DNA from: Trichostrongylus colubriformis
Taxonomy: Eukaryota; Nematoda; Chromadorea; Rhabditida; Trichostrongylidae
DNA length: 64,000 nt
Direction of reading: 5' to 3'
Assembly (NCBI GenBank): GCA_963978905.1
Contig: OZ022256.1
Coordinates: 45,308,001-45,372,000 of the forward strand
Shown piece after piece: positions 1 through 49,927 of this stretch. Positions within the stretch are counted from its first letter, which is position 1, and the number at the start of each line of letters is the position of its first letter. A program made the translations under genes and the position numbers. Under the pieces are notes generated by a model. That model was not told where the DNA came from, did not search any database, and saw only the letters and a list, made by a program, of their open reading frames with translations.

Positions 1-66
1 CGAGTGGTTTCGATCCACCGACCTCTGGGTTATGGGCCCACCACGCTTACACTGCGCCACGCTGCT
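1..66 (-). tRNA. Initiator tRNA-Met copy, cut by the window edge, G19U allele
   Basis: The first bases lie inside the 3' acceptor strand, so the last few bases of this tRNA are outside the window. It carries the G19U change (plus strand cttacactgc) and ccacgc in place of cagcacgc-type sequence next to the anticodon stem. Both weaken the fold, so it is probably a damaged copy. Confidence 0.85.
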
Positions 67-183
67 TTGGAAACAGTATTTTTTGTAGAGGAACACATTT
101 CATTTACGGTTTCAACTTCATAGTACAACATCGGCAACTAGAAGAAATCCCAAGGTTGCTCACTGAAGATGACTCCAAAACAT

Positions 184-255
184 TAGCAGCGAGTGGTTTC
201 GATCCACCGACCTCTGGGTTATGGGCCCAGCACGCTTCCACTGCGCCACGCTGCT
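184..255 (-). tRNA. tRNA-iMet(CAT): Initiator tRNA-Met (CAU), canonical copy used as reference
   Basis: First complete copy. On the minus strand, the acceptor stem AGCAGCG pairs fully with CGCTGCT and the discriminator is A. The D stem is GCGC/GCGT with loop AGTGGAA. The anticodon stem is CTGGG/CCCAG around loop CCCATAA (anticodon CAT, C33), the variable loop is AGGTC, and the T stem GGTGG/CCACT closes the loop ATCGAAA. A1:U72, the three G:C pairs 29-31:39-41, and A54/A60 are the known hallmarks of eukaryotic cytoplasmic initiators. Internal promoters are visible: an A box at TGGCGCAGTGG and a B box at GGATCGAAACC. The product would carry methionine to the 40S subunit with eIF2. There is no intron and no encoded CCA. 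Which copies are expressed cannot be told from sequence. Confidence 0.96.
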
Positions 256-370
256 GTGGCAACAGTTTTTCGTAGAGGAACACATTTCATTATCGGTTTC
301 AACTTCATAGTACAACATCGGCAACTAGAAGAAATCCCAAGGTTGCTCACTGAAAATGACTCCAAAACAA

Positions 371-442
371 TAGCAGCGAGTGGTTTCGATCCACCGATCT
401 CTGGGTTATGGGCCCAGCACTCTTCCACTGCGCCACGCTGCT
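371..442 (-). tRNA. Initiator tRNA-Met copy, C23A+G46A allele
   Basis: Representative of a frequent allele (plus strand accgatctctggg together with agcactcttcc). C23 becomes A, breaking the 12:23 pair of the D stem, and variable-loop G46 becomes A. The 3' flank is also distinctive (aaaacaatagc instead of aaaacattagc), so the three changes travel as one haplotype. The anticodon is still CAT and both promoter boxes are kept. About 25-30 copies of this type are scattered over the array (estimate by eye). Confidence 0.85.
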
Positions 443-557
443 GTGGCAACAGTTTTTTGTAGAGGAACACATTTCATTTACGGTTTCAACTTCATAGTAC
501 AACATCGGCAATAAGACAAGATCACAAGCCTACTCATTCTAAAGGACTCCAAAACAT

Positions 558-629
558 TAGCAGCGAGTGGTTTCGATCCACCGACCTCAGGGTTATGGGC
601 CCAGCACGCTTCCACTGCGCCACGCTGCT
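558..629 (-). tRNA. Initiator tRNA-Met copy, A42U allele
   Basis: Representative of a very common allele (plus strand cctcagggttatggg). Position 42 changes from A to U, giving a U:U mismatch with position 28 in the anticodon stem. The three initiator G:C pairs and the CAT anticodon are intact. A sub-allele (ccggcctcaggg) adds a U-to-C change in the variable loop. Confidence 0.85.
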
Positions 630-746
630 GTGGCAACAGTATTTTTTGTAGAGGAACACATTTCATTTACGGTTTCAACTTCATAGTACAACATCGGCAA
701 TAGGACAAGATCACAAGCCTATTCACTCTAAAGGACTCCAAAACAT

Positions 747-818
747 TAGCAGCGAGTGGTTTCGATCCACCGACCTCTGGGTTATGGGCCCAGCACGCTT
801 CCACTGCGCCACGCTGCT
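747..818 (-). tRNA. tRNA-iMet(CAT): Initiator tRNA-Met (CAU), canonical copy
   Basis: Identical to the reference copy over the tRNA but set in the second spacer family on its 3' side (ataggacaagatcacaagcc). This shows that the same tRNA sequence sits beside both spacer types. Confidence 0.93.
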
Positions 819-1120
819 GTGGCAACAGTTTTTTGTAGAGGAACACATTTCATTTACGGTTTCAACTTCATAGTACAACATCGGCAACTAGAAGAAATCC
901 CAAGGTTGCTCACTGAAGATGACTCCAAAACAATAGCAGCGAGTGGTTTCGATCCACCGATCTCTGGGTTATGGGCCCAGCACTCTTCCACTGCGCCACG
1001 CTGCTGTGGCAACAGTTTTTTGTAGAGGAACACATTTCATTTACGGTTTCAACTTCATAGTACAACATCGGCAATAAGACAAGATCACAAGCCTACTCAC
1101 TCTAAAGGACTCCAAAACAT

Positions 1121-1192
1121 TAGCAGCGAGTGGTTTCGATCCACCGACCTCTGGGTTATGGGCCCAGCACGCTTACACTGCGCCACGCTGCT
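1121..1192 (-). tRNA. Initiator tRNA-Met copy, G19U allele
   Basis: Representative of about 20 copies with plus-strand cttacactgc. The D-loop reads AGTGTAA instead of AGTGGAA, removing G19, which normally pairs with C56 of the T loop, and altering the A box. The leader also differs (ctgctttggaaacag instead of ctgctgtggcaacag). Probably a weakened or dead gene. Confidence 0.85.
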
Positions 1193-1309
1193 TTGGAAAC
1201 AGTATTTTTTGTAGAGGAACACATTTCATTTACGGTTTCAACTTCATAGTACAACATCGGCAACTAGAAGAAATCCCAAGGTTGCTCACTGAAGATGACT
1301 CCAAAACAT

Positions 1310-1381
1310 TAGCAGCGAGTGGTTTCGATCCACCGACCTCTGGGTTATGGGCCCAGCACGCTTCCACTGCGCCACGCTGCT
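1310..1381 (-). tRNA. tRNA-iMet(CAT): Initiator tRNA-Met (CAU), canonical copy
   Basis: Matches the reference tRNA at every base. It opens the first of two 1,685-bp higher-order repeat copies; its counterpart is at 2,995-3,066. Confidence 0.93.
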
Positions 1382-2057
1382 GTGGCAACAGTTTTTCGTA
1401 GAGGAACACATTTCATTATCGGTTTCAACTTCATAGTACAACATCGGCAACTAGAAGAAATCCCAAGGTTGCTCACTGAAAATGACTCCAAAACAATAGC
1501 AGCGAGTGGTTTCGATCCACCGATCTCTGGGTTATGGGCCCAGCACTCTTCCACTGCGCCACGCTGCTGTGGCAACAGTTTTTCGTAGAGGAACACATTT
1601 CATTATCGGTTTCAACTTCATAGTACAACATCGGCAACTAGAAGAAATCCCAAGGTTGCTCACTGAAAATGACTCCAAAACAATAGCAGCGAGTGGTTTC
1701 GATCCACCGATCTCTGGGTTATGGGCCCAGCACTCTTCCACTGCGCCACGCTGCTGTGGCAACAGTTTTTTGTAGAGGAACACATTTCATTTACGGTTTC
1801 AACTTCATAGTACAACATCGGCAATAAGACAAGATCACAAGCCTACTCACTCTAAAGGACTCCAAAACATTAGCAGCGAGTGGTTTCGATCCACCGACCT
1901 CTGGGTTATGGGCCCAGCACGCTTCCACTGCGCCACGCTGCTGTGGCAACAGTTTTTCGTAGAGGAACACATTTCATTATCGGTTTCAACTTCATAGTAC
2001 AACATCGGCAATAAGACAAGATCACAGGCCTACTCACTCTAAAGGACTCCAAAACAT

Positions 2058-2129
2058 TAGCAGCGAGTGGTTTCGATCCACCGACCTCTGGGTTATGGGC
2101 CCAGCACGCTTCCACTGCGCCACGCTGCT
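2058..2129 (-). tRNA. tRNA-iMet(CAT): Initiator tRNA-Met (CAU) on the spacer haplotype that elsewhere carries the CGU anticodon
   Basis: The tRNA is canonical (gggttatgggccc), but its flanks carry both spacer markers found with most CGU copies: cacaggcc on the 3' side and tatcgatttc in the leader side. The leader also has tgtgacaac instead of tgtggcaac. A twin lies at 3,743-3,814. It looks like the ancestral state of the CGU lineage. Confidence 0.9.
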
Positions 2130-2994
2130 GTGACAACAGTTTTTCGTAGAGGAACACATTTCATTATCGATTTCAACTTCATAGTACAACATCGGCAACT
2201 AGAAGAAATCCCAAGGTTGCTCACTGAAGATGACTCCAAAACATTAGCAGCGAGTGGTTTCGATCCACCGACCTCTGGGTTATGGGCCCAGCACGCTTCC
2301 ACTGCGCCACGCTGCTGTGGCAACAGTTTTTCGTAGAGGAACACATTTCATTATCGGTTTCAACTTCATAGTACAACATCGGCAACTAGAAGAAATCCCA
2401 AGGTTGCTCACTGAAAATGACTCCAAAACAATAGCAGCGAGTGGTTTCGATCCACCGATCTCTGGGTTATGGGCCAGGCACTCTTCCACTGCGCCACGCT
2501 GCTGTGGCAACAGTTTTTCGTAGAGGAACACATTTCATTATCGGTTTCAACTTCATAGTACAACATCGGCAACTAGAAGAAATCCCAAGGTTGCTCACTG
2601 AAGATGACTCCAAAACAATAGCAGCGAGTGGTTTCGATCCACCGATCTCTGGGTTATGGGCCCAGCACTCTTCCACTGCGCCACGCTGCTGTGGCAACAG
2701 TTTTTTGTAGAGGAACACATTTCATTTACGGTTTCAACTTCATAGTACAACATCGGCAATAAGACAAGATCACAAGCCTACTCACTCTAAAGGACTCCAA
2801 AACATTAGCAGCGAGTGGTTTCGATCCACCGACCTCTGGGTTATGGGCCCAGCACGCTTACACTGCGCCACGCTGCTTTGGAAACAGTATTTTTTGTAGA
2901 GGAACACATTTCATTTACGGTTTCAACTTCATAGTACAACATCGGCAACTAGAAGAAATCCCAAGGTTGCTCACTGAAGATGACTCCAAAACAT

Positions 2995-3066
2995 TAGCAG
3001 CGAGTGGTTTCGATCCACCGACCTCTGGGTTATGGGCCCAGCACGCTTCCACTGCGCCACGCTGCT
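2995..3066 (-). tRNA. tRNA-iMet(CAT): Initiator tRNA-Met (CAU), canonical copy
   Basis: Counterpart of the copy at 1,310-1,381, exactly 1,685 bp further on; no change inside the tRNA. Confidence 0.93.
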
Positions 3067-3742
3067 GTGGCAACAGTTTTTCGTAGAGGAACACATTTCA
3101 TTATCGGTTTCAACTTCATAGTACAACATCGGCAACTAGAAGAAATCCCAAGGTTGCTCACTGAAAATGACTCCAAAACAATAGCAGCGAGTGGTTTCGA
3201 TCCACCGATCTCTGGGTTATGGGCCCAGCACTCTTCCACTGCGCCACGCTGCTGTGGCAACAGTTTTTCGTAGAGGAACACATTTCATTATCGGTTTCAA
3301 CTTCATAGTACAACATCGGCAACTAGAAGAAATCCCAAGGTTGCTCACTGAAAATGACTCCAAAACAATAGCAGCGAGTGGTTTCGATCCACCGATCTCT
3401 GGGTTATGGGCCCAGCACTCTTCCACTGCGCCACGCTGCTGTGGCAACAGTTTTTTGTAGAGGAACACATTTCATTTACGGTTTCAACTTCATAGTACAA
3501 CATCGGCAATAAGACAAGATCACAAGCCTACTCACTCTAAAGGACTCCAAAACATTAGCAGCGAGTGGTTTCGATCCACCGACCTCTGGGTTATGGGCCC
3601 AGCACGCTTCCACTGCGCCACGCTGCTGTGGCAACAGTTTTTCGTAGAGGAACACATTTCATTATCGGTTTCAACTTCATAGTACAACATCGGCAATAAG
3701 ACAAGATCACAGGCCTACTCACTCTAAAGGACTCCAAAACAT

Positions 3743-3814
3743 TAGCAGCGAGTGGTTTCGATCCACCGACCTCTGGGTTATGGGCCCAGCACGCTTCCAC
3801 TGCGCCACGCTGCT
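3743..3814 (-). tRNA. tRNA-iMet(CAT): Initiator tRNA-Met (CAU), twin of the copy at 2,058
   Basis: Same CAT anticodon and same cacaggcc / tatcgatttc flanks as 2,058-2,129, offset by 1,685 bp. Confidence 0.9.
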
Positions 3815-5055
3815 GTGACAACAGTTTTTCGTAGAGGAACACATTTCATTATCGATTTCAACTTCATAGTACAACATCGGCAACTAGAAGAAATCCCAAG
3901 GTTGCTCACTGAAGATGACTCCAAAACATTAGCAGCGAGTGGTTTCGATCCACCGACCTCTGGGTTATGGGCCCAGCACGCTTCCACTGCGCCACGCTGC
4001 TGTGGCAACAGTTTTTCGTAGAGGAACACATTTCATTATCGGTTCCAACTTCATAGTACAACATCGGCAACTAGAAGAAATCCCAAGGTTGCTCACTGAA
4101 GATGACTCCAAAACATTAGCAGTGAGTGGTTTCGATCCACCGACCTCAGGGTTATGGGCCCAGCACGCTTCCACTGCGCCACGCTGCTGTGGCAACAGTA
4201 TTTTTTGTAGAGGAACACATTTCATTTACGGTTTCAACTTCATAGTACAACATCGGCAATAAGACAAGATCACAAGCCTATTCACTCTAAAGGACTCCAA
4301 AACATTAGCAGCGAGTGGTTTCGATCCACCGACCTCTGGGTTATGGGCCCAGCACGCTTCCACTGCGCCACGCTGCTGTGGCAACAGTTTTTTGTAGAGG
4401 AACACATTTCATTTACGGTTTCAACTTCATAGTACAACATCGGCAATAAGACAAGATCACAAGCCTACTCACTCTAAAGGACTCCAAAACATTAGCAGCG
4501 AGTGGTTTCGATCCACCGACCTCTGGGTTATGGGCCCAGCACGCTTACACTGCGCCACGCTGCTTTGGAAACAGTATTTTTTGTAGAGGAACACATTTCA
4601 TTTACGGTTTCAACTTCATAGTACAACATCGGCAACTAGAAGAAATCCCAAGGTTGCTCACTGAAGATGACTCCAAAACATTAGCAGCGAGTGGTTTCGA
4701 TCCACCGACCTCTGGGTTATGGGCCCAGCACGCTTCCACTGCGCCACGCTGCTGTGGCAACAGTTTTTCGTAGAGGAACACATTTCATTATCGGTTTCAA
4801 CTTCATAGTACAACATCGGCAACTAGAAGAAATCCCAAGGTTGCTCACTGAAAATGACTCCAAAACAATAGCAGCGAGTGGTTTCGATCCACCGATCTCT
4901 GGGTTATGGGCCCAGCACTCTTCCACTGCGCCACGCTGCTGTGGCAACAGTTTTTCGTAGAGGAACACATTTCATTATCGGTTTCAACTTCATAGTACAA
5001 CATCGGCAACTAGAAGAAATCCCAAGGTTGCTCACTGAAGATGACTCCAAAACAT

Positions 5056-5123
5056 TAGCAGCGAGTGGTTTCGATCCACCTCTGAGTTATGGGACCAGCA
5101 CGCTTCCACTGCGCCACGCTGCT
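5056..5123 (-). pseudogene. Deleted initiator tRNA-Met copy (68 nt)
   Basis: First of 35 copies with plus-strand gatccacctctgagttatgg and gggaccagc. Four nucleotides are missing at the variable-loop/T-stem junction. The anticodon stem reads CTGGT/CTCAG, giving a U:C mismatch at 31:39 and a G:U at 30:40, so two of the three initiator G:C pairs are lost. The CAT anticodon, A box and B box survive. It could still bind Pol III factors, but a functional initiator fold is unlikely. Confidence 0.85.
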
Positions 5124-5429
5124 GTGGAAACAGCATTTTTTGTAGAGGAACCCATTTCATTTACGGTTTCAACTTCATAGTACAACATCGGCAACTAGAA
5201 GAAATCCCAAGGTTGCTCACTGAAGATGACTCCAAAACATTAGCAGCGAGTGGTTTCGATCCACCGACCTCAGGGTTATGGGCCCAGCACGCTTCCACTG
5301 CGCCACGCTGCTGTGGCAACAGTATTTTTTGTAGAGGAACACATTTCGTTTACGGTTTCAACTTCATAGTACAACATCGGCAATAAGACAAGATCACAAG
5401 CCTACTCACTCTAAAGGACTCCAAAACAT

Positions 5430-8400
5430 TAGCAGCGAGTGGTTTCGATCCACCGACCTCTGGGTTATGGGCCCAGCACTCTTCCACTGCGCCACGCTGC
5501 TGTGGCAACAGTTTTTCGTAGAGGAACACATTTCATTATCGGTTTCAACTTCATAGTACAACATCGGCAACTAGAAGAAATCCCAAGGTTGCTCACTGAA
5601 GATGACTCCAAAACATTAGCAGCGAGTGGTTTCGATCCACCGACCTCAGGGTTATGGGCCCAGCACGCTTCCACTGCGCCACGCTGCTGTGGCAACAGTA
5701 TTTTTTGTAGAGGAACACACTTCGTTTACGGTTTCAACTTCATAGTACAACATCGGCAATAAGACAAGATCACAAGCCTACTCACTCTAAAGGACTCCAA
5801 AACATTAGCAGCGAGTGGTTTCGATCCACCGACCTCTGGGTTATGGGCCCAGCACGCTTCCACTGCGCCACGCTGCTGTGGCAACAGTATTTTTTGTAGA
5901 GGAACACATTTCATTTACGGTTTCAACTTCATAGTACAACATCGGCAATAAGACAAGATCACAAGCCTACTCATTCTAAAGGACTCCAAAACATTAGCAG
6001 CGAGTGGTTTCGATCCACCGACCTCTGGGTTATGGGCCCAGCACGCTTCCACTGCGCCACGCTGCTTTGGTAACAGAATTTTTCGTAGAGGAACACATTT
6101 CATTTACGGTTTCAACTTCATAGTACAACATCGGCAATAAGACAAGATCACAAGCCTACTCATTCTAAAGGACTCCAAAACATTAGCAGCGAGTGGTTTC
6201 GATCCACCGACCTCAGGGTTATGGGCCCAGCACGCTTCCACTGCGCCACGCTGCTGTGGCAACAGTATTTTTTGTAGAGGAACACATTTCATTTACGGTT
6301 TCAACTTCATAGTACAACATCGGCAATAGGACAAGATCACAAGCCTATTCACTCTAAAGGACTCCAAAACATTAGCAGCGAGTGGTTTCGATCCACCGAC
6401 CTCTGGGTTATGGGCCCAGCACGCTTCCACTGCGCCACGCTGCTGTGGCAACAGTTTTTTGTAGAGGAACACATTTCATTTACGGTTTCAACTTCATAGT
6501 ACAACATCGGCAATAAGACAAGATCACAAGCCTACTCACTCTAAAGGACTCCAAAACATTAGCAGCGAGTGGTTTCGATCCACCGACCTCTGGGTTATGG
6601 GCCCAGCACGCTTACACTGCGCCACGCTGCTTTGGAAACAGTATTTTTTGTAGAGGAACACATTTCATTATCGGTTTCAACTTCATAGTACAACATCGGC
6701 AACTAGAAGAAATCCCAAGGTTGCTCACTGAAGATGACTCCAAAACAATAGCAGCGAGTGGTTTCGATCCACCGATCTCTGGGTTATGGGCCCAGCACTC
6801 TTCCACTGCGCCACGCTGCTGTGGCAACAGTTTTTCGTAGAGGAACACATTTCATTATCGGTTTCAACTTCATAGTACAACATCGGCAACTAGAAGAAAT
6901 CCCAAGGTTGCTCACTGAAGATGACTCCAAAACATTAGCAGCGAGTGGTTTCGATCCACCGACCTCAGGGTTATGGGCCCAGCACGCTTCCACTGCGCCA
7001 CGCTGCTGTGGCAACAGTATTTTTTGTAGAGGAACACATTTCGTTTACGGTTTCAACTTCATAGTACAACATCGGCAATAAGACAAGATCACAAGCCTAC
7101 TCACTCTAAAGGACTCCAAAACATTAGCAGCGAGTGGTTTCGATCCACCGACCTCTGGGTTATGGGCCCAGCACGCTTCCACTGCGCCACGCTGCTGTGG
7201 TAACAGAATTTTTCGTAGAGGAACACATTTCATTTACGGTTTCAACTTCATAGTACAACATCGGCAATAAGACAAGATCACAGGCCTACTCACTCTAAAG
7301 GACTCCAAAACATTAGCAGCGAGTGGTTTCGATCCACCGACCTCTGGGTTACGGTCCCAGCACGCTTCCACTGCGCCACGCTGCTGTGGCAACAGTTTTT
7401 CGTAGAGGAACACATTTCATTATCGATTTCAACTTCATAGTACAACATCGGCAACTAGAAGAGATCCCAAGGTTGCTCACTGAAGATGACTCCAAAACAT
7501 TAGCAGCGAGTGGTTTCGATCCACCGACCTCTGGGTTATGGGCCCAGCACGCTTCCACTGCGCCACGCTGCTGTGGCAACAGTTTTTCGTAGAGGAACAC
7601 ATTTCATTATCGGTTTCAACTTCATAGTACAACATCGGCAACTAGAAGAAATCCCAAGGTTGCTCACTGAAGATGACTCCAAAACATTAGCAGCGAGTGG
7701 TTTCGATCCACCGACCTCAGGGTTATGGGCCCAGCACGCTTCCACTGCGCCACGCTGCTGTGGTAACAGAATTTTTCGTAGAGGAACACATTTCATTTAC
7801 GGTTTCAACTTCATAGTACAACATCGGCAACTAGAAGAAATCCCAAGGTTGCTCACTAAAGATGACTCCAAAACATTAGCAGCGAGTGGTTTCGATCCAC
7901 CTCTGAGTTATGGGACCAGCACGCTTCCACTGCGCCACGCTGCTGTGGAAACAGCATTTTTTGTAGAGGAACCCATTTCATTTACGGTTTCAACTTCATA
8001 GTACAACATCGGCAACTAGAAGAAATCCCAAGGTTGCTCACTGAAGGTGACTCCAAAACATTAGCAGCGAGTGGTTTCGATCCACCGATCTCTGGGCTAT
8101 GGGCCCAGCACTCTTCCACTGCGCCACGCTGCTGTGGTAACAGAATTTTTCGTAGAGGAACACATTTCATTTACGGTTTCAACTTCATAGTACAACATCG
8201 GCAACTAGAAGAAATCCCAAGGTTGCTCACTGAAGATGACTCCAAAACATTAGCAGCGAGTGGTTTCGATCCACCGACCTCAGGGTTATGGGCCCAGCAC
8301 GCTTCCACTGCGCCACGCTGCTGTGGCAACAGTATTTTTTGTAGAGGAACACATTTCGTTTACGGTTTCAACTTCATAGTACAACATCGGCAATAAGACA

Positions 8401-9567
8401 AGATCACAAGCCTACTCACTCTAAAGGACTCCAAAACATTAGCAGCGAGTGGTTTCGATCCACCGACCTCTGGGTTATGGGCCCAGCACGCTTCCACTGC
8501 GCCACGCTGCTGTGGCAACAGTTTTTTGTAGAGGAACACATTTCATTTACGGTTTCAACTTCATAGTACAACATCGGCAATAAGACAAGATCACAAGCCT
8601 ACTCACTCTAAAGGACTCCAAAACATTAGCAGCGAGTGGTTTCGATCCACCGACCTCTGGGTTATGGGCCCAGCACGCTTACACTGCGCCACGCTGCTTT
8701 GGAAACAGTATTTTTTGTAGAGGAACACATTTCATTTACGGTTTCAACTTCATAGTACAACATCGGCAACTAGAAGAAATCCCAAGGTTGCTCACTGAAG
8801 ATGACTCCAAAACATTAGCAGCGAGTGGTTTCGATCCACCGACCTCAGGGTTATGGGCCCAGCACGCTTCCACTGCGCCACGCTGCTGTGGCAACAGTAT
8901 TTTTTGTAGAGGAACACATTTCGTTTACGATTTCAACTTCATAGTACAACATCGGCAATAAGACAAGATCACAAGCCTACTCACTCTAAAGGACTCCAAA
9001 ACATTAGCAGCGAGTGGTTTCGATCCACCGACCTCTGGGTTATGGGCCCAGCACGCTTCCACTGCGCCACGCTGCTGTGGCAACAGTTTTTTGTAGAGGA
9101 ACACATTTCATTTACGGTTTCAACTTCATAGTACAACATCGGCAATAAGACAAGATCACAAGCCTACTCACTCTAAAGGACTCCAAAACATTAGCAGCGA
9201 GTGGTTTCGATCCACCGACCTCTGGGTTATGGGCCCAGCACGCTTACACTGCGCCACGCTGCTTTGGAAACAGTATTTTTTGTAGAGGAACACATTTCAT
9301 TTACGGTTTCAACTTCATAGTACAACATCGGCAACTAGAAGAAATCCCAAGGTTGCTCACTGAAGATGACTCCAAAACATTAGCAGCGAGTGGTTTCGAT
9401 CCACCGACCTCTGGGTTATGGGCCCAGCACGCTTCCACTGCGCTACGCTGCTGTGGCAACAGTTTTTCGTAGAGGAACACATTTCATTATCGGTTTCAAC
9501 TTCATAGTACAACATCGGCAACTAGAAGAAATCCCAAGGTTGCTCACTGAAGATGACTCCAAAACAA
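5430..9567 (-). repeat. Higher-order repeat copy, about 4,138 bp (22 monomers)
   Basis: The allele series starting here recurs from 9,568 at an offset of 4,138 bp (for example units at 5,726, 5,915, 6,104, 6,612 and 6,758 match 9,864, 10,053, 10,242, 10,750 and 10,896). The match weakens after about 7 kb, so later exchange has rearranged the inside. Confidence 0.7.
7314..7385 (-). tRNA. Initiator-type tRNA with CGU anticodon, copy 1 of 14
   Basis: On the minus strand the anticodon loop reads ACCGTAA instead of CCCATAA: C32 becomes A and A35 becomes G, so the anticodon is CGU, complementary to ACG. Every other base equals the canonical initiator: full acceptor stem, GGG/CCC in the anticodon stem, AUCGAAA loop, A and B boxes, TTTT terminator. 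A tRNA of this kind could in principle read ACG. Because methionyl-tRNA synthetase depends on the CAU anticodon, charging with Met is doubtful, and Thr charging is possible. Flanks are cacaggcc (3') and tatcgatttc (5'). Its right neighbour is a canonical CAU copy. Confidence 0.9.
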
Positions 9568-11823
9568 TAGCAGCGAGTGGTTTCGATCCACCGATCTCTG
9601 GGTTATGGGCCCAGCACTCTTCCACTGCGCCACGCTGCTGTGGCAACAGTTTTTCGTAGAGGAACACATTTCATTATCGGTTTCAACTTCATAGTACAAC
9701 ATCGGCAACTAGAAGAAATCCCAAGGTTGCTCACTGAAGATGACTCCAAAACATTAGCAGCGAGTGGTTTCGATCCACCGACCTCAGGGTTATGGGCCCA
9801 GCACGCTTCCACTGCGCCACGCTGCTGTGGCAACAGTATTTTTTGTAGAGGAACACACTTCGTTTACGGTTTCAACTTCATAGTACAACATCGGCAATAA
9901 GACAAGATCACAAGCCTACTCACTCTAAAGGACTCCAAAACATTAGCAGCGAGTGGTTTCGATCCACCGACCTCTGGGTTATGGGCCCAGCACGCTTCCA
10001 CTGCGCCACGCTGCTGTGGCAACAGTATTTTTTGTAGAGGAACACATTTCATTTACGGTTTCAACTTCATAGTACAACATCGGCAATAAGACAAGATCAC
10101 AAGCCTACTCATTCTAAAGGACTCCAAAACATTAGCAGCGAGTGGTTTCGATCCACCGACCTCTGGGTTATGGGCCCAGCACGCTTCCACTGCGCCACGC
10201 TGCTGTGGTAACAGAATTTTTCGTAGAGGAACACATTTCATTTACGGTTTCAACTTCATAGTACAACATCGGCAATAAGACAAGATCACAAGCCTACTCA
10301 TTCTAAAGGACTCCAAAACATTAGCAGCGAGTGGTTTCGATCCACCGACCTCAGGGTTATGGGCCCAGCACGCTTCCACTGCGCCACGCTGCTGTGGCAA
10401 CAGTATTTTTTGTAGAGGAACACATTTCATTTACGGTTTCAACTTCATAGTACAACATCGGCAATAGGACAAGATCACAAGCCTATTCACTCTAAAGGAC
10501 TCCAAAACATTAGCAGCGAGTGGTTTCGATCCACCGACCTCTGGGTTATGGGCCCAGCACGCTTCCACTGCGCCACGCTGCTGTGGCAACAGTTTTTTGT
10601 AGAGGAACACATTTCATTTACGGTTTCAACTTCATAGTACAACATCGGCAATAAGACAAGATCACAAGCCTACTCACTCTAAAGGACTCCAAAACATTAG
10701 CAGCGAGTGGTTTCGATCCACCGACCTCTGGGTTATGGGCCCAGCACGCTTACACTGCGCCACGCTGCTTTGGAAACAGTATTTTTTGTAGAGGAACACA
10801 TTTCATTATCGGTTTCAACTTCATAGTACAACATCGGCAACTAGAAGAAATCCCAAGGTTGCTCACTGAAGATGACTCCAAAACAATAGCAGCGAGTGGT
10901 TTCGATCCACCGATCTCTGGGTTATGGGCCCAGCACTCTTCCACTGCGCCACGCTGCTGTGGCAACAGTTTTTCGTAGAGGAACACATTTCATTATCGGT
11001 TTCAACTTCATAGTACAACATCGGCAACTAGAAGAAATCCCAAGGTTGCTCACTGAAGATGACTCCAAAACATTAACAGCGAGTGGTTTCGATCCACCGA
11101 CCTCAGGGTTATGGGCCCAGCACGCTTCCACTGCGCCACGCTGCTGTGGTAACAGAATTTTTCGTAGAGGAACACATTTCATTTACGGTTTCAACTTCAT
11201 AGTACAACATCGGCAACAAGAAGAAATCCCAAGGTTGCTCACTAAAGATGACTCCAAAACATTAGCAGCGAGTGGTTTCGATCCACCTCTGAGTTATGGG
11301 ACCAGCACGCTTCCACTGCGCCACGCTGCTGTGGCAACAGTTCTTCGTAGAGGAACACATTTCATTATCGGTTTCAACTTCATAGTACAACATCGGCAAC
11401 TAGAAGAAATCCCAAGGTTGCTCACTGAAGATGACTCCAAAACATTAGCAGCGAGTGGTTTCGATCCACCGGCCTCAGGGTTATGGGCCCAGCACGCTTC
11501 CACTGCGCCACGCTGCTGTGGCAACAGTATTTTTTGTAGAGGAACACATTTCGTTTACGGTTTCAACTTCATAGTACAACATCGGCAATAAGACAAGATC
11601 ACAAGCCTACTCACTCTAAAGGACTCCAAAACATTAGCAGCGAGTGGTTTCGATCCACCGACCTCTGGGTTATGGGCCCAGCACGCTTCCACTGCGCCAC
11701 GCTGCTGTGGTAACAGAATTTTTCGTAGAGGAACACATTTCATTTACGGTTTCAACTTCATAGTACAACATCGGCAATAAGACAAGATCACAGGCCTACT
11801 CACTCTAAAGGACTCCAAAACAT

Positions 11824-38730: not shown

Positions 38731-38847
38731 GTGGTAACAGAATTTTTCGTAGAGGAACACATTTCATTTACGGTTTCAACTTCATAGTACAACATCGGCA
38801 ATAAGACAAGATCACAGGCCTACTCACTCTAAAGGACTCCAAAACAT

Positions 38848-39412: not shown

Positions 39413-39484
39413 TAGCAGCGAGTGGTTTCGATCCACCGACCTCTGGGTTACGGTCCCAGCACGCTTCCACTGCGCCACGCTGCT
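39413..39484 (-). tRNA. CGU-anticodon initiator-type tRNA, copy 13 of 14
   Basis: Third copy with the recombined cctattc flank. Confidence 0.9.
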
Positions 39485-39975
39485 GTGGCAACAGTTTTTC
39501 GTAGAGGAACACATTTCATTATCGATTTCAACTTCATAGTACAACATCGGCAACTAGAAGAAATCCCAAGGTTGCTCACTGAAGATGACTCCAAAACATT
39601 AGCAGCGAGTGGTTTCGATCCACCGACCTCAGGGTTATGGGCCCAGCACGCTTCCACTGCGCCACGCTGCTGTGGTAACAGAATTTTTCGTAGAGGAACA
39701 CATTTCATTTACGGTTTCAACTTCATAGTACAACATCGGCAACTAGAAGAAATCCCAAGGTTGCTCACTAAAGATGACTCCAAAACATTAGCAGCGAGTG
39801 GTTTCGATCCACCTCTGAGTTATGGGACCAGCACGCTTCCACTGCGCCACGCTGCTGTGGAAACAGTATTTTTTGTAGAGGAACACATTTCATTATCGGT
39901 TTCAACTTCATAGTACAACATCGGCAACTAGAAGAAATCCCGATGAAATGCTCACTGAAGGTGACTCCAAAACAT

Positions 39976-40047
39976 TAGCAGCGAGTGGTTTCGAACCACC
40001 GACCTCTGGGTTATGGGCCCAGCACGCTTCCACTGCGCCACGCTGCT
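39976..40047 (-). tRNA. A54U initiator tRNA-Met, copy 14 of 16
   Basis: Start of the fourth, incomplete repeat copy. Confidence 0.9.
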
Positions 40048-40725
40048 GTGGCAACAGTTCTTCGTAGAGGAACACATTTCATTATCGGTTTCAACTTCAT
40101 AGTACAACATCGGCAACAAGAAGAAATCCCAAGGTTGCTCACTAAAGATGACTCCAAAACATTAGCAGCGAGTGGTTTCGATCCACCTCTGAGTTATGGG
40201 ACCAGCACGCTTCCACTGCGCCACGCTGCTGTGGCAACAGTTCTTCGTAGAGGAACACATTTCATTATCGGTTTCAACTTCATAGTACAACATCGGCAAC
40301 TAGAAGAAATCCCAAGGTTGCTCACTGAAGATGACTCCAAAACATTAGCAGCGAGTGGTTTCGATCCACCGGCCTCAGGGTTATGGGCCCAGCACGCTTC
40401 CACTGCGCCACGCTGCTGTGGCAACAGTATTTTTTGTAGAGGAACACATTTCGTTTACGGTTTCAACTTCATAGTACAACATCGGCAATAAGACAAGATC
40501 ACAAGCCTACTCACTCTAAAGGACTCCAAAACATTAGCAGCGAGTGGTTTCGATCCACCGACCTCTGGGTTATGGGCCCAGCACGCTTCCACTGCGCCAC
40601 GCTGCTGTGGCAACAGTATTTTTTGTAGAGGAACACATTTCATTATCGGTTTCAACTTCATAGTACAACATCGGCAACTAGAAGAAATCCCGATGAAATG
40701 CTCACTGAAGGTGACTCCAAAACAT

Positions 40726-40797
40726 TAGCAGCGAGTGGTTTCGAACCACCGACCTCTGGGTTATGGGCCCAGCACGCTTCCACTGCGCCACGCTGCT
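40726..40797 (-). tRNA. A54U initiator tRNA-Met, copy 15 of 16
   Basis: Last copy with the tttacgg leader sub-allele. Confidence 0.9.
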
Positions 40798-41473
40798 GTG
40801 GCAACAGTTCTTCGTAGAGGAACACATTTCATTTACGGTTTCAACTTCATAGTACAACATCGGCAACAAGAAGAAATCCCAAGGTTGCTCACTAAAGATG
40901 ACTCCAAAACATTAGCAGCGAGTGGTTTCGATCCACCTCTGAGTTATGGGACCAGCACGCTTCCACTGCGCCACGCTGCTGTGGCAACAGTTCTTCGTAG
41001 AGGAACACATTTCATTATCGGTTTCAACTTCATAGTACAACATCGGCAACTAGAAGAAATCCCAAGGTTGCTCACTGAAGATGACTCCAAAACATTAGCA
41101 GCGAGTGGTTTCGATCCACCGGCCTCAGGGTTATGGGCCCAGCACGCTTCCACTGCGCCACGCTGCTGTGGCAACAGTATTTTTTGTAGAGGAACACATT
41201 TCGTTTACGGTTTCAACTTCATAGTACAACATCGGCAATAAGACAAGATCACAAGCCTACTCACTCTAAAGGACTCCAAAACATTAGCAGCGAGTGGTTT
41301 CGATCCACCGACCTCTGGGTTATGGGCCCAGCACGCTTCCACTGCGCCACGCTGCTGTGGTAACAGAATTTTTCGTAGAGGAACACATTTCATTTACGGT
41401 TTCAACTTCATAGTACAACATCGGCAATAAGACAAGATCACAGGCCTACTCACTCTAAAGGACTCCAAAACAT

Positions 41474-41545
41474 TAGCAGCGAGTGGTTTCGATCCACCGA
41501 CCTCTGGGTTACGGTCCCAGCACGCTTCCACTGCGCCACGCTGCT
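41474..41545 (-). tRNA. CGU-anticodon initiator-type tRNA, copy 14 of 14
   Basis: Last CGU copy in the window; cacaggcc flank. I saw none to the right of it. Confidence 0.9.
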
Positions 41546-42036
41546 GTGGCAACAGTTTTTCGTAGAGGAACACATTTCATTATCGATTTCAACTTCATAG
41601 TACAACATCGGCAACTAGAAGAAATCCCAAGGTTGCTCACTGAAGATGACTCCAAAACATTAGCAGCGAGTGGTTTCGATCCACCGACCTCAGGGTTATG
41701 GGCCCAGCACGCTTCCACTGCGCCACGCTGCTGTGGTAACAGAATTTTTCGTAGAGGAACACATTTCATTTACGGTTTCAACTTCATAGTACAACATCGG
41801 CAACTAGAAGAAATCCCAAGGTTGCTCACTAAAGATGACTCCAAAACATTAGCAGCGAGTGGTTTCGATCCACCTCTGAGTTATGGGACCAGCACGCTTC
41901 CACTGCGCCACGCTGCTGTGGAAACAGTATTTTTTGTAGAGGAACACATTTCATTATCGGTTTCAACTTCATAGTACAACATCGGCAACTAGAAGAAATC
42001 CCGATGAAATGCTCACTGAAGGTGACTCCAAAACAT

Positions 42037-42108
42037 TAGCAGCGAGTGGTTTCGAACCACCGACCTCTGGGTTATGGGCCCAGCACGCTTCCACTGCGCC
42101 ACGCTGCT
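42037..42108 (-). tRNA. A54U initiator tRNA-Met, copy 16 of 16
   Basis: Last A54U copy; its right spacer switches to the ataagacaag/cacaggcc form. Confidence 0.9.
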
Positions 42109-44105
42109 GTGGCAACAGTTCTTCGTAGAGGAACACATTTCATTATCGGTTTCAACTTCATAGTACAACATCGGCAATAAGACAAGATCACAGGCCTACT
42201 CACTCTAAAGGACTCCAAAACATTAGCAGCGAGTGGTTTCGATCCACCGACCTCTGGGTTATGGGCCCAGCACGCTTCCACTGCGCCACGCTGCTGTGGC
42301 AACAGTTTTTTGTAGAGGAACACATTTCATTTACGGTTTCAACTTCATAGTACAACATCGGCAATAAGACAAGATCACAAGCCTACTCACTCTAAAGGAC
42401 TCCAAAACATTAGCAGCGAGTGGTTTCGATCCACCGACCTCTGGGTTATGGGCCCAGCACGCTTACACTGCGCCACGCTGCTTTGGAAACAGTATTTTTT
42501 GTAGAGGAACACATTTCATTTACGGTTTCAACTTCATAGTACAACATCGGCAACTAGAAGAAATCCCAAGGTTGCTCACTGAAGATGACTCCAAAACATT
42601 AGCAGCGAGTGGTTTCGATCCACCGACCTCTGGGTTATGGGCCCAGCACGCTTCCACTGCGCCACGCTGCTGTGGCAACAGTTTTTCGTAGAGGAACACA
42701 CTTCATTATCGGTTTCAACTTCATAGTACAACATCGGCAACTAGAAGAAATCCCAAGGTTGCTCACTGAAGATGACTCCAAAACAATAGCAGCGAGTGGT
42801 TTCGATCCACCGATCTCTGGGTTATGGGCCCAGCACTCTTCCACTGCGCCACGCTGCTGTGGCAACAGTTTTTCGTAGAGGAACACATTTCATTATCGGT
42901 TTCAACTTCATAGTACAACATCGGCAACTAGAAGAAATCCCAAGGTTGCTCACTGAAGATGACTCCAAAACATTAGCAGCGAGTGGTTTCGATCCACCGA
43001 CCTCAGGGTTATGGGCCCAGCACGCTTCCACTGCGCCACGCTGCTGTGGCAACAGTATTTTTTGTAGAGGAACACACTTCGTTTACGGCTTCAACTTCAT
43101 AGTACAACATCGGCAATAAGACAAGATCACAAGCCTACTCACTCTAAAGGACTCCAAAACATTAGCAGCGAGTGGTTTCGATCCACCGACCTCTGGGTTA
43201 TGGGCCCAGCACGCTTCCACTGCGCCACGCTGCTGTGGCAACAGTATTTTTTGTAGAGGAACACATTTCATTTACGGTTTCAACTTCATAGTACAACATC
43301 GGCAATAAGACAAGATCACAAGCCTACTCATTCTAAAGGACTCCAAAACATTAGCAGCGAGTGGTTTCGATCCACCGACCTCTGGGTTATGGGCCCAGCA
43401 CGCTTCCACTGCGCCACGCTGCTGTGGTAACAGAATTTTTCGTAGAGGAACACATTTCATTTACGGTTTCAACTTCATAGTACAACATCGGCAACTAGAA
43501 GAAATCCCAAGGTTGCTCACTGAAGATGACTCCAAAACATTAGCAGCGAGTGGTTTCGATCCACCGACCTCAGGGTTATGGGCCCAGCACGCTTCCACTG
43601 CGCCACGCTGCTTTGGCAACAGTATTTTTTGTAGAGGAACACATTTCGTTTACGGTTTCAACTTCATAGTACAACATCGGCAATAAGACAAGATCACAAG
43701 CCTACTCACTCTAAAGGACTCCAAAACATTAGCAGCGAGTGGTTTCGATCCACCGACCTCTGGGTTATGGGCCCAGCACGCTTCCACTGCGCCACGCTGC
43801 TGTGGCAACAGTTTTTTGTAGAGGAACACATTTCATTTACGGTTTCAACTTCATAGTACAACATCGGCAATAAGACAAGATCACAAGCCTACTCACTCTA
43901 AAGGACTCCAAAACATTAGCAGCGAGTGGTTTCGATCCACCGACCTCTGGGTTATGGGCCCAGCACGCTTACACTGCGCCACGCTGCTTTGGAAACAGTA
44001 TTTTTTGTAGAGGAACACATTTCATTTACGGTTTCAACTTCATAGTACAACATCGGCAACTAGAAGAAATCCCAAGGTTGCTCACTGAAGATGACTCCAA
44101 AACAT

Positions 44106-47100
44106 TAGCAGCGAGTGGTTTCGATCCACCGACCTCTGGGTTATGGGCCCAGCACGCTTCCACTGCGCCACGCTGCTGTGGCAACAGTTTTTCGTAGAGG
44201 AACACATTTCATTATCGGTTTCAACTTCATAGTACAACATCGGCAACTAGAAGAAATCCCAAGGTTGCTCACTGAAGATGACTCCAAAACAATAGCAGCG
44301 AGTGGTTTCGATCCACCGATCTCTGGGTTATGGGCCCAGCACTCTTCCACTGCGCCACGCTGCTGTGGCAACAGTTTTTCGTAGAGGAACACATTTCATT
44401 ATCGGTTTCAACTTCATAGTACAACATCGGCAACTAGAAGAAATCCCAAGGTTGCTCACTGAAGATGACTCCAAAACATTAGCAGCGAGTGGTTTCGATC
44501 CACCGACCTCAGGGTTATGGGCCCAGCACGCTTCCACTGCGCCACGCTGCTGTGGCAACAGTATTTTTTGTAGAGGAACACACTTCGTTTACGGTTTCAA
44601 CTTCATAGTACAACATCGGCAATAAGACAAGATCACAAGCCTACTCACTCTAAAGGACTCCAAAACATTAGCAGCGAGTGGTTTCGATCCACCGACCTCT
44701 GGGTTATGGGCCCAGCACGCTTCCACTGCGCCACGCTGCTGTGGCAACAGTATTTTTTGTAGAGGAACACATTTCATTTACGGTTTCAACTTCATAGTAC
44801 AACATCGGCAATAAGACAAGATCACAAGCCTACTCATTCTAAAGGACTCCAAAACATTAGCAGCGAGTGGTTTCGATCCACCGACCTCTGGGTTATGGGC
44901 CCAGCACGCTTCCACTGCGCCACGCTGCTGTGGTAACAGAATTTTTCGTAGAGGAACACATTTCATTTACGGTTTCAACTTCATAGTACAACATCGGCAA
45001 TAGGACAAGATCACAAGCCTATTCACTCTAAAGGACTCCAAAACATTAGCAGCGAGTGGTTTCGATCCACCGACCTCTGGGTTATGGGCCCAGCACGCTT
45101 CCACTGCGCCACGCTGCTGTGGCAACAGTTTTTTGTAGAGGAACACATTTCATTTACGGTTTCAACTTCATAGTACAACATCGGCAATAAGACAAGATCA
45201 CAAGCCTACTCAATCTAAAGGACTCCAAAACATTAGCAGCGAGTGGTTTCGATCCACCGACCTCTGGGTTATGGGCCCAGCACGCTTCCACTGCGCCACG
45301 CTGCTGTGGTAACAGAATTTTTCGTAGAGGAACACATTTCATTTACGGTTTCAACTTCATAGTACAACATCGGCAATAGGACAAGATCACAAGCCTATTC
45401 ACTCTAAAGGACTCCAAAACATTAGCAGCGAGTGGTTTCGATCCACCGACCTCTGGGTTATGGGCCCAGCACGCTTCCACTGCGCCACGCTGCTGTGGCA
45501 ACAGTTTTTCGTAGAGGAACACATTTCATTTACGGTTTCAACTTCATAGTACAACATCGGCAACTAGAAGAAATCCCAAGGTTGCTCACTAAAGATGACT
45601 CCAAAACATTAGCAGCGAGTGGTTTCGATCCACCTCTGAGTTATGGGACCAGCACGCTTCCACTGCGCCACGCTGCTGTGGAAACAGCATTTTTTGTAGA
45701 GGAACACATTTCATTTACGGTTTCAACTTCATAGTACAACATCGGCAACTAGAAGAAATCCCAAGGTTGCTCACTGAAGATGACTCCAAAACATTAGCAG
45801 CGAGTGGTTTCGATCCACCGACCTCAGGGTTATGGGCCCAGCACGCTTCCACTGCGCCACGCTGCTGTGGTAACAGAATTTTTCGTAGAGGAACACATTT
45901 CATTTACGGTTTCAACTTCATAGTACAACATCGGCAACTAGAAGAAATCCCAAGGTTGCTCACTAAAGATGACTCCAAAACATTAGCAGCGAGTGGTTTC
46001 GATCCACCTCTGAGTTATGGGACCAGCACGCTTCCACTGCGCCACGCTGCTGTGGAAACAGCATTTTTTGTAGAGGAACACATTTCATTTACGGTTTCAA
46101 CTTCATAGTACAACATCGGCAACTAGAAGAAATCCCAAGGTTGCTCACTGAAGGTGACTCCAAAACATTAGCAGCGAGTGGTTTCGATCCACCGACCTCT
46201 GGGTTATGGGCCCAGCACGCTTCCACTGCGCCACGCTGCTGTGGCAACAGTATTTTTTGTAGAGGAACACATTTCATTTACGGTTTCAACTTCATAGTAC
46301 AACATCGGCAATAAGACAAGATCACAAGCCTACTCACTCTAAAGGACTCCAAAACATTAGCAGCGAGTGGTTTCGATCCACCGACCTCTGGGTTATGGGC
46401 CCAGCACGCTTCCACTGCGCCACGCTGCTGTGGCAACAGTTCTTCGTAGAGGAACACATTTCATTATCGGTTTCAACTTCATAGTACAACATCGGCAATA
46501 AGACAAGATCCCAAGCCTACTCACTCAAAATGACTCTAAAACATTAGCAGCGAGTGGTTTCGATCCACCGACCTCTGGGTTATGGGCCCAGCACGCTTCC
46601 ACTGCGCCACGCTGCTGTGGTAACAGAATTTTTCGTAGAGGAACACATTTCATTTACGGTTTCAACTTCATAGTACAACATCGGCAACTAGAAGAAATCC
46701 CAAGGTTGCTCACTGAAGATGACTCCAAAACATTAGCAGCGAGTGGTTTCGATCCACCGACCTCAGGGTTATGGGCCCAGCACGCTTCCACTGCGCCACG
46801 CTGCTTTGGCAACAGTATTTTTTGTAGAGGAACACATTTCGTTTACGGTTTCAACTTCATAGTACAACATCGGCAATAAGACAAGATCACAAGCCTACTC
46901 ACTCTAAAGGACTCCAAAACATTAGCAGCGAGTGGTTTCGATCCACCGACCTCTGGGTTATGGGCCCAGCACGCTTCCACTGCGCCACGCTGCTGTGGCA
47001 ACAGTTTTTTGTAGAGGAACACATTTCATTTACGGTTTCAACTTCATAGTACAACATCGGCAATAAGACAAGATCACAAGCCTACTCACTCTAAAGGACT

Positions 47101-49554
47101 CCAAAACATTAGCAGCGAGTGGTTTCGATCCACCGACCTCTGGGTTATGGGCCCAGCACGCTTCCACTGCGCCACGCTGCTGTGGCAACAGTTTTTCGTA
47201 GAGGAACACATTTCATTATCGGTTTCAACTTCATAGTACAACATCGGCAACTAGAAGAAATCCCAAGGTTGCTCACTGAAGATGACTCCAAAACAATAGC
47301 AGCGAGTGGTTTCGATCCACCGATCTCTGGGTTATGGGCCCAGCACTCTTCCACTGCGCCACGCTGCTGTGGCAACAGTTTTTCGTAGAGGAACACATTT
47401 CATTATCGGTTTCAACTTCATAGTACAACATCGGCAACTAGAAGAAATCCCAAGGTTGCTCACTGAAGATGACTCCAAAACATTAGCAGCGAGTGGTTTC
47501 GATCCACCGACCTCAGGGTTATGGGCCCAGCACGCTTCCACTGCGCCACGCTGCTGTGGCAACAGTATTTTTTGTAGAGGAACACACTTCGTTTACGGTT
47601 TCAACTTCATAGTACAACATCGGCAATAAGACAAGATCACAAGCCTACTCACTCTAAAGGACTCCAAAACATTAGCAGCGAGTGGTTTCGATCCACCGAC
47701 CTCTGGGTTATGGGCCCAGCACGCTTCCACTGCGCCACGCTGCTGTGGCAACAGTATTTTTTGTAGAGGAACACATTTCATTTACGGTTTCAACTTCATA
47801 GTACAACATCGGCAATAAGACAAGATCACAAGCCTACTCATTCTAAAGGACTCCAAAACATTAGCAGCGAGTGGTTTCGATCCACCGACCTCTGGGTTAT
47901 GGGCCCAGCACGCTTCCACTGCGCCACGCTGCTGTGGTAACAGAATTTTTCGTAGAGGAACACATTTCATTTACGGTTTCAACTTCATAGTACAACATCG
48001 GCAATAGGACAAGATCACAAGCCTATTCACTCTAAAGGACTCCAAAACATTAGCAGCGAGTGGTTTCGATCCACCGACCTCTGGGTTATGGGCCCAGCAC
48101 GCTTCCACTGCGCCACGCTGCTGTGGCAACAGTTTTTTGTAGAGGAACACATTTCATTTACGGTTTCAACTTCATAGTACAACATCGGCAATAAGACAAG
48201 ATCACAAGCCTACTCAATCTAAAGGACTCCAAAACATTAGCAGCGAGTGGTTTCGATCCACCGACCTCTGGGTTATGGGCCCAGCACGCTTCCACTGCGC
48301 CACGCTGCTGTGGTAACAGAATTTTTCGTAGAGGAACACATTTCATTTACGGTTTCAACTTCATAGTACAACATCGGCAATAGGACAAGATCACAAGCCT
48401 ATTCACTCTAAAGGACTCCAAAACATTAGCAGCGAGTGGTTTCGATCCACCGACCTCTGGGTTATGGGCCCAGCACGCTTCCACTGCGCCACGCTGCTGT
48501 GGCAACAGTTTTTCGTAGAGGAACACATTTCATTTACGGTTTCAACTTCATAGTACAACATCGGCAACTAGAAGAAATCCCAAGGTTGCTCACTAAAGAT
48601 GACTCCAAAACATTAGCAGCGAGTGGTTTCGATCCACCTCTGAGTTATGGGACCAGCACGCTTCCACTGCGCCACGCTGCTGTGGAAACAGCATTTTTTG
48701 TAGAGGAACACATTTCATTTACGGTTTCAACTTCATAGTACAACATCGGCAACTAGAAGAAATCCCAAGGTTGCTCACTGAAGATGACTCCAAAACATTA
48801 GCAGCGAGTGGTTTCGATCCACCGACCTCAGGGTTATGGGCCCAGCACGCTTCCACTGCGCCACGCTGCTGTGGTAACAGAATTTTTCGTAGAGGAACAC
48901 ATTTCATTTACGGTTTCAACTTCATAGTACAACATCGGCAACTAGAAGAAATCCCAAGGTTGCTCACTAAAGATGACTCCAAAACATTAGCAGCGAGTGG
49001 TTTCGATCCACCTCTGAGTTATGGGACCAGCACGCTTCCACTGCGCCACGCTGCTGTGGAAACAGCATTTTTTGTAGAGGAACACATTTCATTTACGGTT
49101 TCAACTTCATAGTACAACATCGGCAACTAGAAGAAATCCCAAGGTTGCTCACTGAAGGTGACTCCAAAACATTAGCAGCGAGTGGTTTCGATCCACCGAC
49201 CTCTGGGTTATGGGCCCAGCACGCTTCCACTGCGCCACGCTGCTGTGGCAACAGTATTTTTTGTAGAGGAACACATTTCATTTACGGTTTCAACTTCATA
49301 GTACAACATCGGCAATAAGACAAGATCACAAGCCTACTCACTCTAAAGGACTCCAAAACATTAGCAGCGAGTGGTTTCGATCCACCGACCTCTGGGTTAT
49401 GGGCCCAGCACGCTTCCACTGCGCCACGCTGCTGTGGCAACAGTTCTTCGTAGAGGAACACATTTCATTATCGGTTTCAACTTCATAGTACAACATCGGC
49501 AATAAGACAAGATCCCAAGCCTACTCACTCAAAATGACTCTAAAACATTAGCAG
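44106..49554 (-). repeat. Higher-order repeat at 3,004-bp offset (16 monomers)
   Basis: Block 44,106-46,550 recurs at 47,110-49,554: units at 44,115, 45,432, 45,767 and 46,089 match 47,119, 48,436, 48,771 and 49,093. A private spacer with gatcccaagcctactcactc and aaaatgactctaaaac occurs once in each copy. Beyond 49,554 the second copy meets the decaying array edge. Confidence 0.85.
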
Positions 49555-49620
49555 CGAGTGGTTTCGATCCACAGACCTCTGGGTTATGGGCCCAGCACGC
49601 TTCCACTGCGCCACGCTGCT
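49549..49620 (-). tRNA. Penultimate initiator tRNA-Met copy, mildly decayed
   Basis: Base changes appear that are absent from internal copies: plus-strand ccacagacc removes the 49:65 T-stem pair, and the leader reads ctatggcaacagattttcg. CAT anticodon intact. Confidence 0.8.
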
Positions 49621-49735
49621 ATGGCAACAGATTTTCGTAGAGGAACACATTTCATTTACGGTTTCAACTTCATAGTACAACATCGGCAATAAGACAAGGT
49701 CCGAAGCCTACTCACTCTAAAGGACTGCAAAACAT

Positions 49736-49807
49736 TAGCAGCGAGGGGTGTCGATCCACCGACCTCTGGGTTATGGCCCCAGCACGCTTCCACTCCGCCA
49801 CGCTGCT
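49736..49807 (-). pseudogene. Terminal initiator tRNA-Met copy, decayed
   Basis: Last recognisable copy. It keeps the acceptor stem and CAT anticodon. Private changes hit the T arm (plus-strand gaggggtgtcgatcc), the anticodon loop (tatggcccc, so C32 is G) and the D stem (cactccgcc). The T-arm change also damages the B box. Confidence 0.8.
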
Positions 49808-49927
49808 GTGGGAACAGTCTTCCATAGGTATACATTTCTTTCACGGTTTCATCATAGTTAGTTCAAGATCGGCAGTAAGACGAGGCCCCCGGGCCCACTC
49901 ACTCAAAATGACTCAAAAAGCATTAGC
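49808..49927. repeat. Degenerate last spacer and end of the array
   Basis: The spacer is still recognisable (acatttc, cacggtttc, gatcggca, actcactcaaaatgact) but heavily substituted, with small insertions and deletions. It ends in gcattagc, that is at the first bases of where the next tRNA would start. From 49,928 there is no array sequence. Confidence 0.8.

Follow-up and report, generated by a model that had tools for sequence, protein, structure and literature searches.

The transfer RNA (tRNA) gene repeat of Xenopus, known as its tDNA repeat, is 3.18 kb long and holds genes for several isotypes, the initiator tRNA-Met (iMet) gene among them. Bermudez-Santana et al. describe clusters that hold fifty tRNA genes or more in Nematostella and in teleosts (PMC2888827). 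Other sources describe plant tRNA clusters of up to 26 identical or up to 110 similar genes (PMC12652284), the Arabidopsis SYY (Ser-Tyr-Tyr) cluster, in which 54 clustered Tyr genes lie together with Ser genes and which is silent in most tissues (PMC12308677), and a human variable number tandem repeat (VNTR) at 1q23.3, whose 7.3-kb, CTCF-bound unit holds five tRNA genes and recurs 9-43 times per allele (PMC4041453). In Entamoeba, much of the tRNA set lies in tandem arrays, each with its own unit and with most unit copies uniform; the units hold up to five tRNA genes, some with a 5S gene, the arrayed genes of E. histolytica and E. dispar are separated by short tandem repeats, and the arrays occupy more than 10% of the E. 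histolytica genome (PMC2652664). Here we describe a 64,000-nt stretch of the genome of the nematode Trichostrongylus colubriformis (hereafter the window; C1:45308001-45372000 in an assembly of 331 Mb and 52 contigs), most of which is a tandem array of iMet genes. Giant single-tRNA blocks of this kind are an arrangement rarely reported in animals. Among the matches listed by a full-text literature search, which covers subscription journals thinly and is weak evidence of novelty, there was no initiator tRNA array of this size and no nematode tRNA array, and the available main text of a review of nematode chromosomes does not contain the term 'tRNA' (PMC9071541).

Structure and state of the iMet array

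A blast search with the 72-nt gene placed 265 whole copies in the window, head to tail and uninterrupted on the minus strand from position 1 to 49927. The array was followed past the window, through 80 kb more sequence to the left and 20 kb more to the right, and comprises 533 copies in 99.7 kb (C1:45258157-45357807), with 265 inside the window, one straddling window base 1, and 267 to the left of the window. An earlier note made from the window's sequence had counted about 265 iMet genes in one uninterrupted array; the count holds for the window, but because the array extends left to C1:45258157, the window contains its right half only. The 532 intervals between copies all measure 179-191 bp, most commonly 187 (234 intervals) or 189 bp (211), and are free of insertions; the monomer, the 72-bp gene and a spacer of about 115 bp, is accordingly mostly 187 or 189 bp long.

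Tandem Repeats Finder (TRF) reported a single array in the window (1-49817, period 189, 265.4 copies, 92% matches), and the Rfam tRNA profile exceeded its gathering score 230 times within window positions 1-50000, compared with the 265 copies. ARAGORN predicted 229 tRNAs in the window, all on the minus strand between 184 and 49807 (214 Met(CAT), 14 labelled 'Thr'(CGT), and one unresolved), and 495 in the 164 kb that include the flanks, every one within the array and 476 of them Met(CAT). The 38 of 533 copies that ARAGORN overlooks are 36 with a 4-nt deletion, all in the window, and two at the left edge of the array, outside the window.

Initiator tRNAs are recognised by an A1:U72 pair, three G-C pairs closing the anticodon stem, and A54 and A60 in the T loop. 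The consensus of the 533 copies has A1:U72, the three closing G-C pairs, and an AUCGAAA T loop (A54/A60), and judged by these features the arrayed gene is a cytoplasmic initiator tRNA-Met. A TTTT run lies 3 nt downstream of the gene in 532 of 533 copies, and the remaining copy, at an edge, has seven T. The evidence from ARAGORN, TRF, Rfam, blast, and the TTTT runs bears out what the earlier note had said of the element itself, namely that it consists of iMet genes on one strand, in tandem, with a nucleosome-sized monomer and mostly intact signals.

The copies differ in how well they are preserved. One 72-nt sequence is matched exactly by 195 of the 533, and it is also the sequence of two iMet genes that lie dispersed and intact on contigs C5 and C3 (L002 and L003). 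A further 98 copies are variant but free of stem mispairs, 185 carry mispairs (one in 149 copies, two in 35, and three in 1), 36 have the 4-nt deletion, which falls in the variable/T arm, and one is a diverged left-edge copy that is misregistered through a gap. The anticodon is altered in 18 copies, to CGT in 14, all within the window, and to TGT in four; these are point variants on an iMet body, and a mixed-isotype cluster was rejected on that ground. The window half is the more decayed, with 76 canonical copies of 265 compared with 119 of 268 elsewhere in the array. As a side observation, the 14 initiator bodies with a CGT anticodon would favour ACG starts if they were charged with Met and used.

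Single-isotype arrays elsewhere in the genome

The earlier note had treated the iMet array as a single oddity, which it is not: the genome contains at least five single-isotype tRNA arrays, for iMet, Lys(TTT), Arg(TCG), Thr(CGT), and Ile(AAT) (Table 1), and explanations based on initiation alone are therefore weakened. Together the five amount to about 0.22 Mb of the 331 Mb. A genome-wide Rfam tRNA search, in which the best 63 of 25,793 candidates were scored, yielded a solo tRNA-Lys gene at C1:7450072, 53 genes in C1:29424695-29436656, seven in C1:29444427-29473950, and two on C6. The Lys array was found in all eight samples taken between 29437k and 29476k on C1 and in one at 29475k, and was absent at 29477k and 29478k. 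The Arg array was absent from samples at 16253k and 16271k on C6, and the Ile array from one at 5900k on C1; the Thr array was absent at 3912k on C1, its left end lying beyond the samples. Each unit holds a single gene, both in the stretches examined for iMet, Lys, and Arg and in what was sampled of the Thr and Ile arrays, and the spacers of the five arrays, compared by one representative each, showed no significant mutual similarity (best E=0.17).

A pattern of two B boxes 178-208 bp apart matched 1,644 times genome-wide compared with 25 times in a reversed control, and a chance origin of the arrays was rejected on this basis. Among the matches listed by position, all but the first belonged to the Thr(CGT) array. 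A second B-box pair pattern matched 786 times compared with three in its control, and the matches listed lay in the Ile(AAT) array. To judge by the B boxes common in each of the five arrays, none of them accounts for the 570 matches of this second pattern on the reverse strand: the restricted position is G in Lys and Arg and T in Thr, the Ile array is on the forward strand, and iMet is without a GTTC box. Further tRNA arrays therefore very probably exist beyond the five. A short upstream motif, AAAATTCTG, was seen by eye in the Lys and Thr arrays and in one iMet variant, and was absent from two iMet solo genes, the Lys solo gene, and the Ile array; we claim nothing from it.

Table 1. Coordinates of the four further arrays and of representative features of the iMet array (bare numbers are window positions; k, thousands of bases)
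Feature	Position	Strand	Monomer	Remarks
tRNA-Lys(TTT) array (L052, L053, L055, L074-L081)	C1:29424.7k-29476.4k		201/202 bp	~52 kb, ~257 copies estimated
tRNA-Arg(TCG) array (L054, L062, L068, L083-L086)	C6:16254.1k-16270.2k		194 bp	~83 copies estimated
tRNA-Thr(CGT) array (L087-L090)	C1:3868.9k-3903.4k sampled	+	~197 bp	
tRNA-Ile(AAT) array (L094)	C1:5874.6k to at least 5894.0k	+	179-180 bp	
Right half of iMet array	1..49927	-		ARAGORN, TRF, blast; 265 whole monomers
Canonical iMet gene, example	184..255	-		1 of 76 in window, 195 in array; identical to dispersed L002/L003 genes
Copy with 4-nt deletion (variable/T arm), example	5056..5123	-		1 of 36, all in window
Initiator body with CGT anticodon, example	7314..7385	-		1 of 14, all in window
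Right-edge monomer	49736..49927	-		Gene with 4 mismatches to consensus; no later copies in window

Exchange, constraint, and competing explanations

The 533 copies comprise 141 distinct monomers. Two main spacer types account for 305 and 220 of the copies and differ at 16 sites, none of which falls within the gene, and no minor gene allele occurs in more than 75 of the 533. Identical blocks reach 29 monomers (5.4 kb), and repetition at lags such as 14, 22, 31, 50, and 81 forms local higher-order patterns; such a picture is typical of repeated unequal exchange, whose role in shaping the iMet array is well supported. The earlier note had suggested a tRNA-derived satellite spread by unequal exchange. 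The exchange is upheld by the identical blocks, and a satellite-like trait is present in that a long, homogenised tandem array evolves by this process, but satellite status itself is a rival explanation, weighed below.

We lean, with some caution, towards regarding the array as a working multicopy RNA polymerase III (Pol III) tRNA locus, organised like the 5S ribosomal DNA (rDNA) and grown by unequal exchange. Each 187/189-bp monomer would be a complete Pol III unit, with internal A and B boxes, a mature tRNA, and a TTTT stop, and unequal exchange between sister chromatids or homologues would expand, contract, and homogenise the block. Selection would act on the pooled output, keeping the consensus canonical and leaving individual copies free to decay; copy number would be set by exchange and not by demand, and the same process acting on other isotypes would have produced the other giant single-isotype arrays of the genome. 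We infer transcription of the array, with only some of the copies active at any one time and with more copies than are needed; stage specificity and nucleosome phasing are further inferences, and a role in supplying oocytes or embryos, by analogy with the tRNA repeats of Xenopus, is guesswork.

Support for this working locus comes from the 533 copies with no interval above 191 bp, the 195 copies identical to the two dispersed genes, the T run behind each gene, the identical blocks with their lag-50 repetition, and the absence of any minor gene allele above 75 copies. It comes also from gene remnants beside the array, which were compared with the array consensus (spacer type A for the spacer). 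In the old left remnant, 130 of 137 gene positions are identical compared with 118 of 150 in the spacer (p=5e-5); the right remnant has 66 of 71 compared with 101 of 123 (p=0.051), and without a significance test a third piece at the far left has 50 of 59 compared with 9 of 13, and the right edge of the array 92 of 96 compared with 199 of 225. Segregating sites are fewer in the gene than in the spacer in the left part of the Lys array (31 units; 2/72 vs 21/130, p=0.0045) and in the Arg array (41 units; 6/72 vs 26/122, p=0.026). From the iMet comparisons, the consensus gene looks constrained over the longer time and single copies look expendable now, a combination to be expected where a gene family is large and homogenised. 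Alternatively, the consensus may have been kept young because the array re-expanded recently from one canonical copy.

Several observations weigh against a working locus. Within the iMet array, with the 16 type-specific sites excluded, 41 of 72 gene sites segregate compared with 61 of 99 spacer sites (p=0.64), and pair-breaking alleles are as frequent as the neutral expectation (23/53 vs 42%). Mean diversity is 0.028 in the gene compared with 0.090 in the spacer when the 16 sites are included, a difference that is due to the two spacer types, given that the values become 0.028 and 0.026 when the sites are excluded; in seven 60-copy slices with the sites included, the gene was always the lower, significantly in one (p=0.019; the rest 0.11-0.39). 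Gene and spacer do not differ at the left edge of the array (68/78 vs 149/174, without a significance test), in the right part of the Lys array (49 units; 12/72 vs 28/130, p=0.46), or in both Lys parts pooled (14/72 vs 32/130, p=0.48). Constraint, then, is visible in some array blocks and not in others. In addition, at least two dispersed iMet genes could supply the function, and in our judgement the arrayed isotypes do not look like a simple codon-demand list.

Some of these observations favour the strongest rival, a tRNA-derived satellite. On this view tandem exchange captured an iMet gene, and the resulting block now drifts as a largely silent, nucleosome-phased repeat, the cell being sustained by the few dispersed genes, of which two canonical ones are present. 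We regard it as possible but rather doubtful. The neutrality within the array, in which gene and spacer vary equally and pair-breaking alleles are not avoided beyond chance, fits such a silent satellite equally well as it fits a working array; the 36 deletion copies and 18 anticodon-changed copies have been amplified with the others, the monomers are close to nucleosome length in all five arrays, and the tandem tRNA cluster of Arabidopsis is described as silent in most tissues (PMC12308677). Against this, every copy of the gene has a T run behind it, the gene is more strongly constrained in the Arg array and in one part of the Lys array, and the commonest gene form equals the dispersed genes exactly after a time long enough for the spacer to diverge by about 20% from the left remnant. 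The working array is preferred over the silent satellite because the gene has stayed constant relative to the left remnant and because its canonical sequence is shared with the dispersed genes.

An inflated or scrambled assembly of a smaller array appears improbable. Identical blocks of up to 29 monomers would be hard for short reads, but 141 distinct monomers in a patterned higher-order structure, edge copies that are more diverged, old remnants on both sides, and four further arrays of the same style on contigs C1 and C6 all argue against an artefact. Least credible, to the point of being highly improbable, is that selection for a very high initiator dose, for example for egg production, drove and keeps 500 copies: the 195 canonical copies and the switching on of tandem tRNA genes at zygotic genome activation in Xenopus (PMC11500080) are in keeping with it, but arrays of Arg-TCG, Thr-CGT, and other genes stand alongside, and many defective copies are tolerated. 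The high dose suggested in the earlier note has no direct support; 195 of the 533 copies are canonical, and two intact dispersed genes exist as well. High dose and a satellite formed by unequal exchange are not mutually exclusive readings.

Surroundings of the array, significance, and comparison with known systems

Three diverged gene pieces lie 16 kb to the left of the array (C1:45241017-45241890), and one diverged remnant lies 20 kb to its right (C1:45378199). Also on the left is a gene for the alpha subunit of the mitochondrial processing peptidase (MPP-alpha), to which a weak, sub-cut-off M16 peptidase match was the lead and whose tblastn pieces span C1:45242755-45253341. The exon-joined protein has its highest identity with T. 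colubriformis (95% over the full query), followed by Cooperia oncophora (89%, partial, 65% of the query), Haemonchus contortus (88%), Nippostrongylus (83%), and Necator (81%); ordered by E-value, the list is headed by a Haemonchus placei protein (81%), with T. colubriformis in second place. Taken alone, this protein places the genome among the trichostrongylid nematodes, probably in Trichostrongylus. Eight of the 11 pieces are 84-100% identical to the T. colubriformis protein, and three that cross introns are 52-78% identical. A bacterial origin of the stretch was rejected in view of this split gene beside the array, which is 76-95% identical to the strongylid proteins at the top of the match list. 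Pfam scans of 10 flanking open reading frames (ORFs) in the window and 10 in neighbouring stretches gave nothing above the cut-off, a protein search with one 241-aa ORF gave no match, and exact-pattern scans for the iMet core in viral and prokaryote contigs gave none. Just to the right of the array, at window positions 50536-51026, lies a large, near-perfect inverted repeat with arms of 29, 97, and 46 nt that are 90-93% complementary, possibly a transposon remnant.

Away from the array, in a first-look genome search that skipped very common words, eight matches spanned the gene and at most about 16 bases beside it, and on this showing a tRNA-derived short interspersed element, whose dispersed copies would carry a body and tail unrelated to tRNA, is unlikely. 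One solo iMet-like gene (L005, C6:49169323) has a changed anticodon loop and a T run behind it. Five truncated or diverged copies (L006-L010) have CCA or CA at the 3' end and then GT; they lack a T run in the next 20 bases and look like retro-copies of mature tRNA made by reverse transcription.

We tentatively raise a broader reading, which we hold possible though not the likelier outcome: that a large part of the nuclear tRNA set has been rebuilt into giant single-isotype, single-gene arrays with monomers near one nucleosome repeat, an Entamoeba-like organisation that would have evolved independently in an animal. If true, all the arrayed tRNA genes would share one position with respect to a phased nucleosome, and an entire isotype could be turned on or off as a single block of chromatin, perhaps in the germline or embryo. 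The near-nucleosome repeat size in all five arrays, with dissimilar spacers, makes a testable chromatin hypothesis. More generally, these are animal tRNA genes that evolve like rDNA, one isotype being present in hundreds of copies that undergo concerted evolution. The variant copies, as natural barcodes, allow one to ask directly which of them are transcribed and at what time, and what sets the limit to the size of an array. With several isotypes arrayed, it can be tested whether the dose of tRNA genes follows codon demand or arises as a by-product of exchange. Should array size vary among related species, the arrays might be used as markers of livestock worms too.

Tandem tRNA arrays as such are already known. 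Unlike the long, multi-isotype units of Xenopus, the units here are single-gene and nucleosome-sized. The likeness to Xenopus, with its oocyte-specific tandem tRNA genes, is in the tandem Pol III tRNA genes of an animal (PMC11500080). With the human 1q23.3 VNTR the arrays share the tandem tRNA repeat, the size change per allele being a feature of the human locus (PMC4041453), and with Arabidopsis SYY they share a major form accompanied by decayed minor copies and by dispersed genes (PMC12308677). Neighbouring tRNA genes in Nematostella and zebrafish mostly form heterogeneous pairs, and the available part of the survey by Bermudez-Santana et al. names no single-isotype block of hundreds (PMC2888827). 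Like Entamoeba, T. colubriformis carries a number of separate tandem tRNA arrays, five here; unlike the multi-gene Entamoeba units, its units of about 180-202 bp hold one gene each, and in an animal (PMC2652664). As to the share of the tRNA set that lies in arrays, the B-box pairs here far exceed their control, but dispersed iMet and Lys genes exist.

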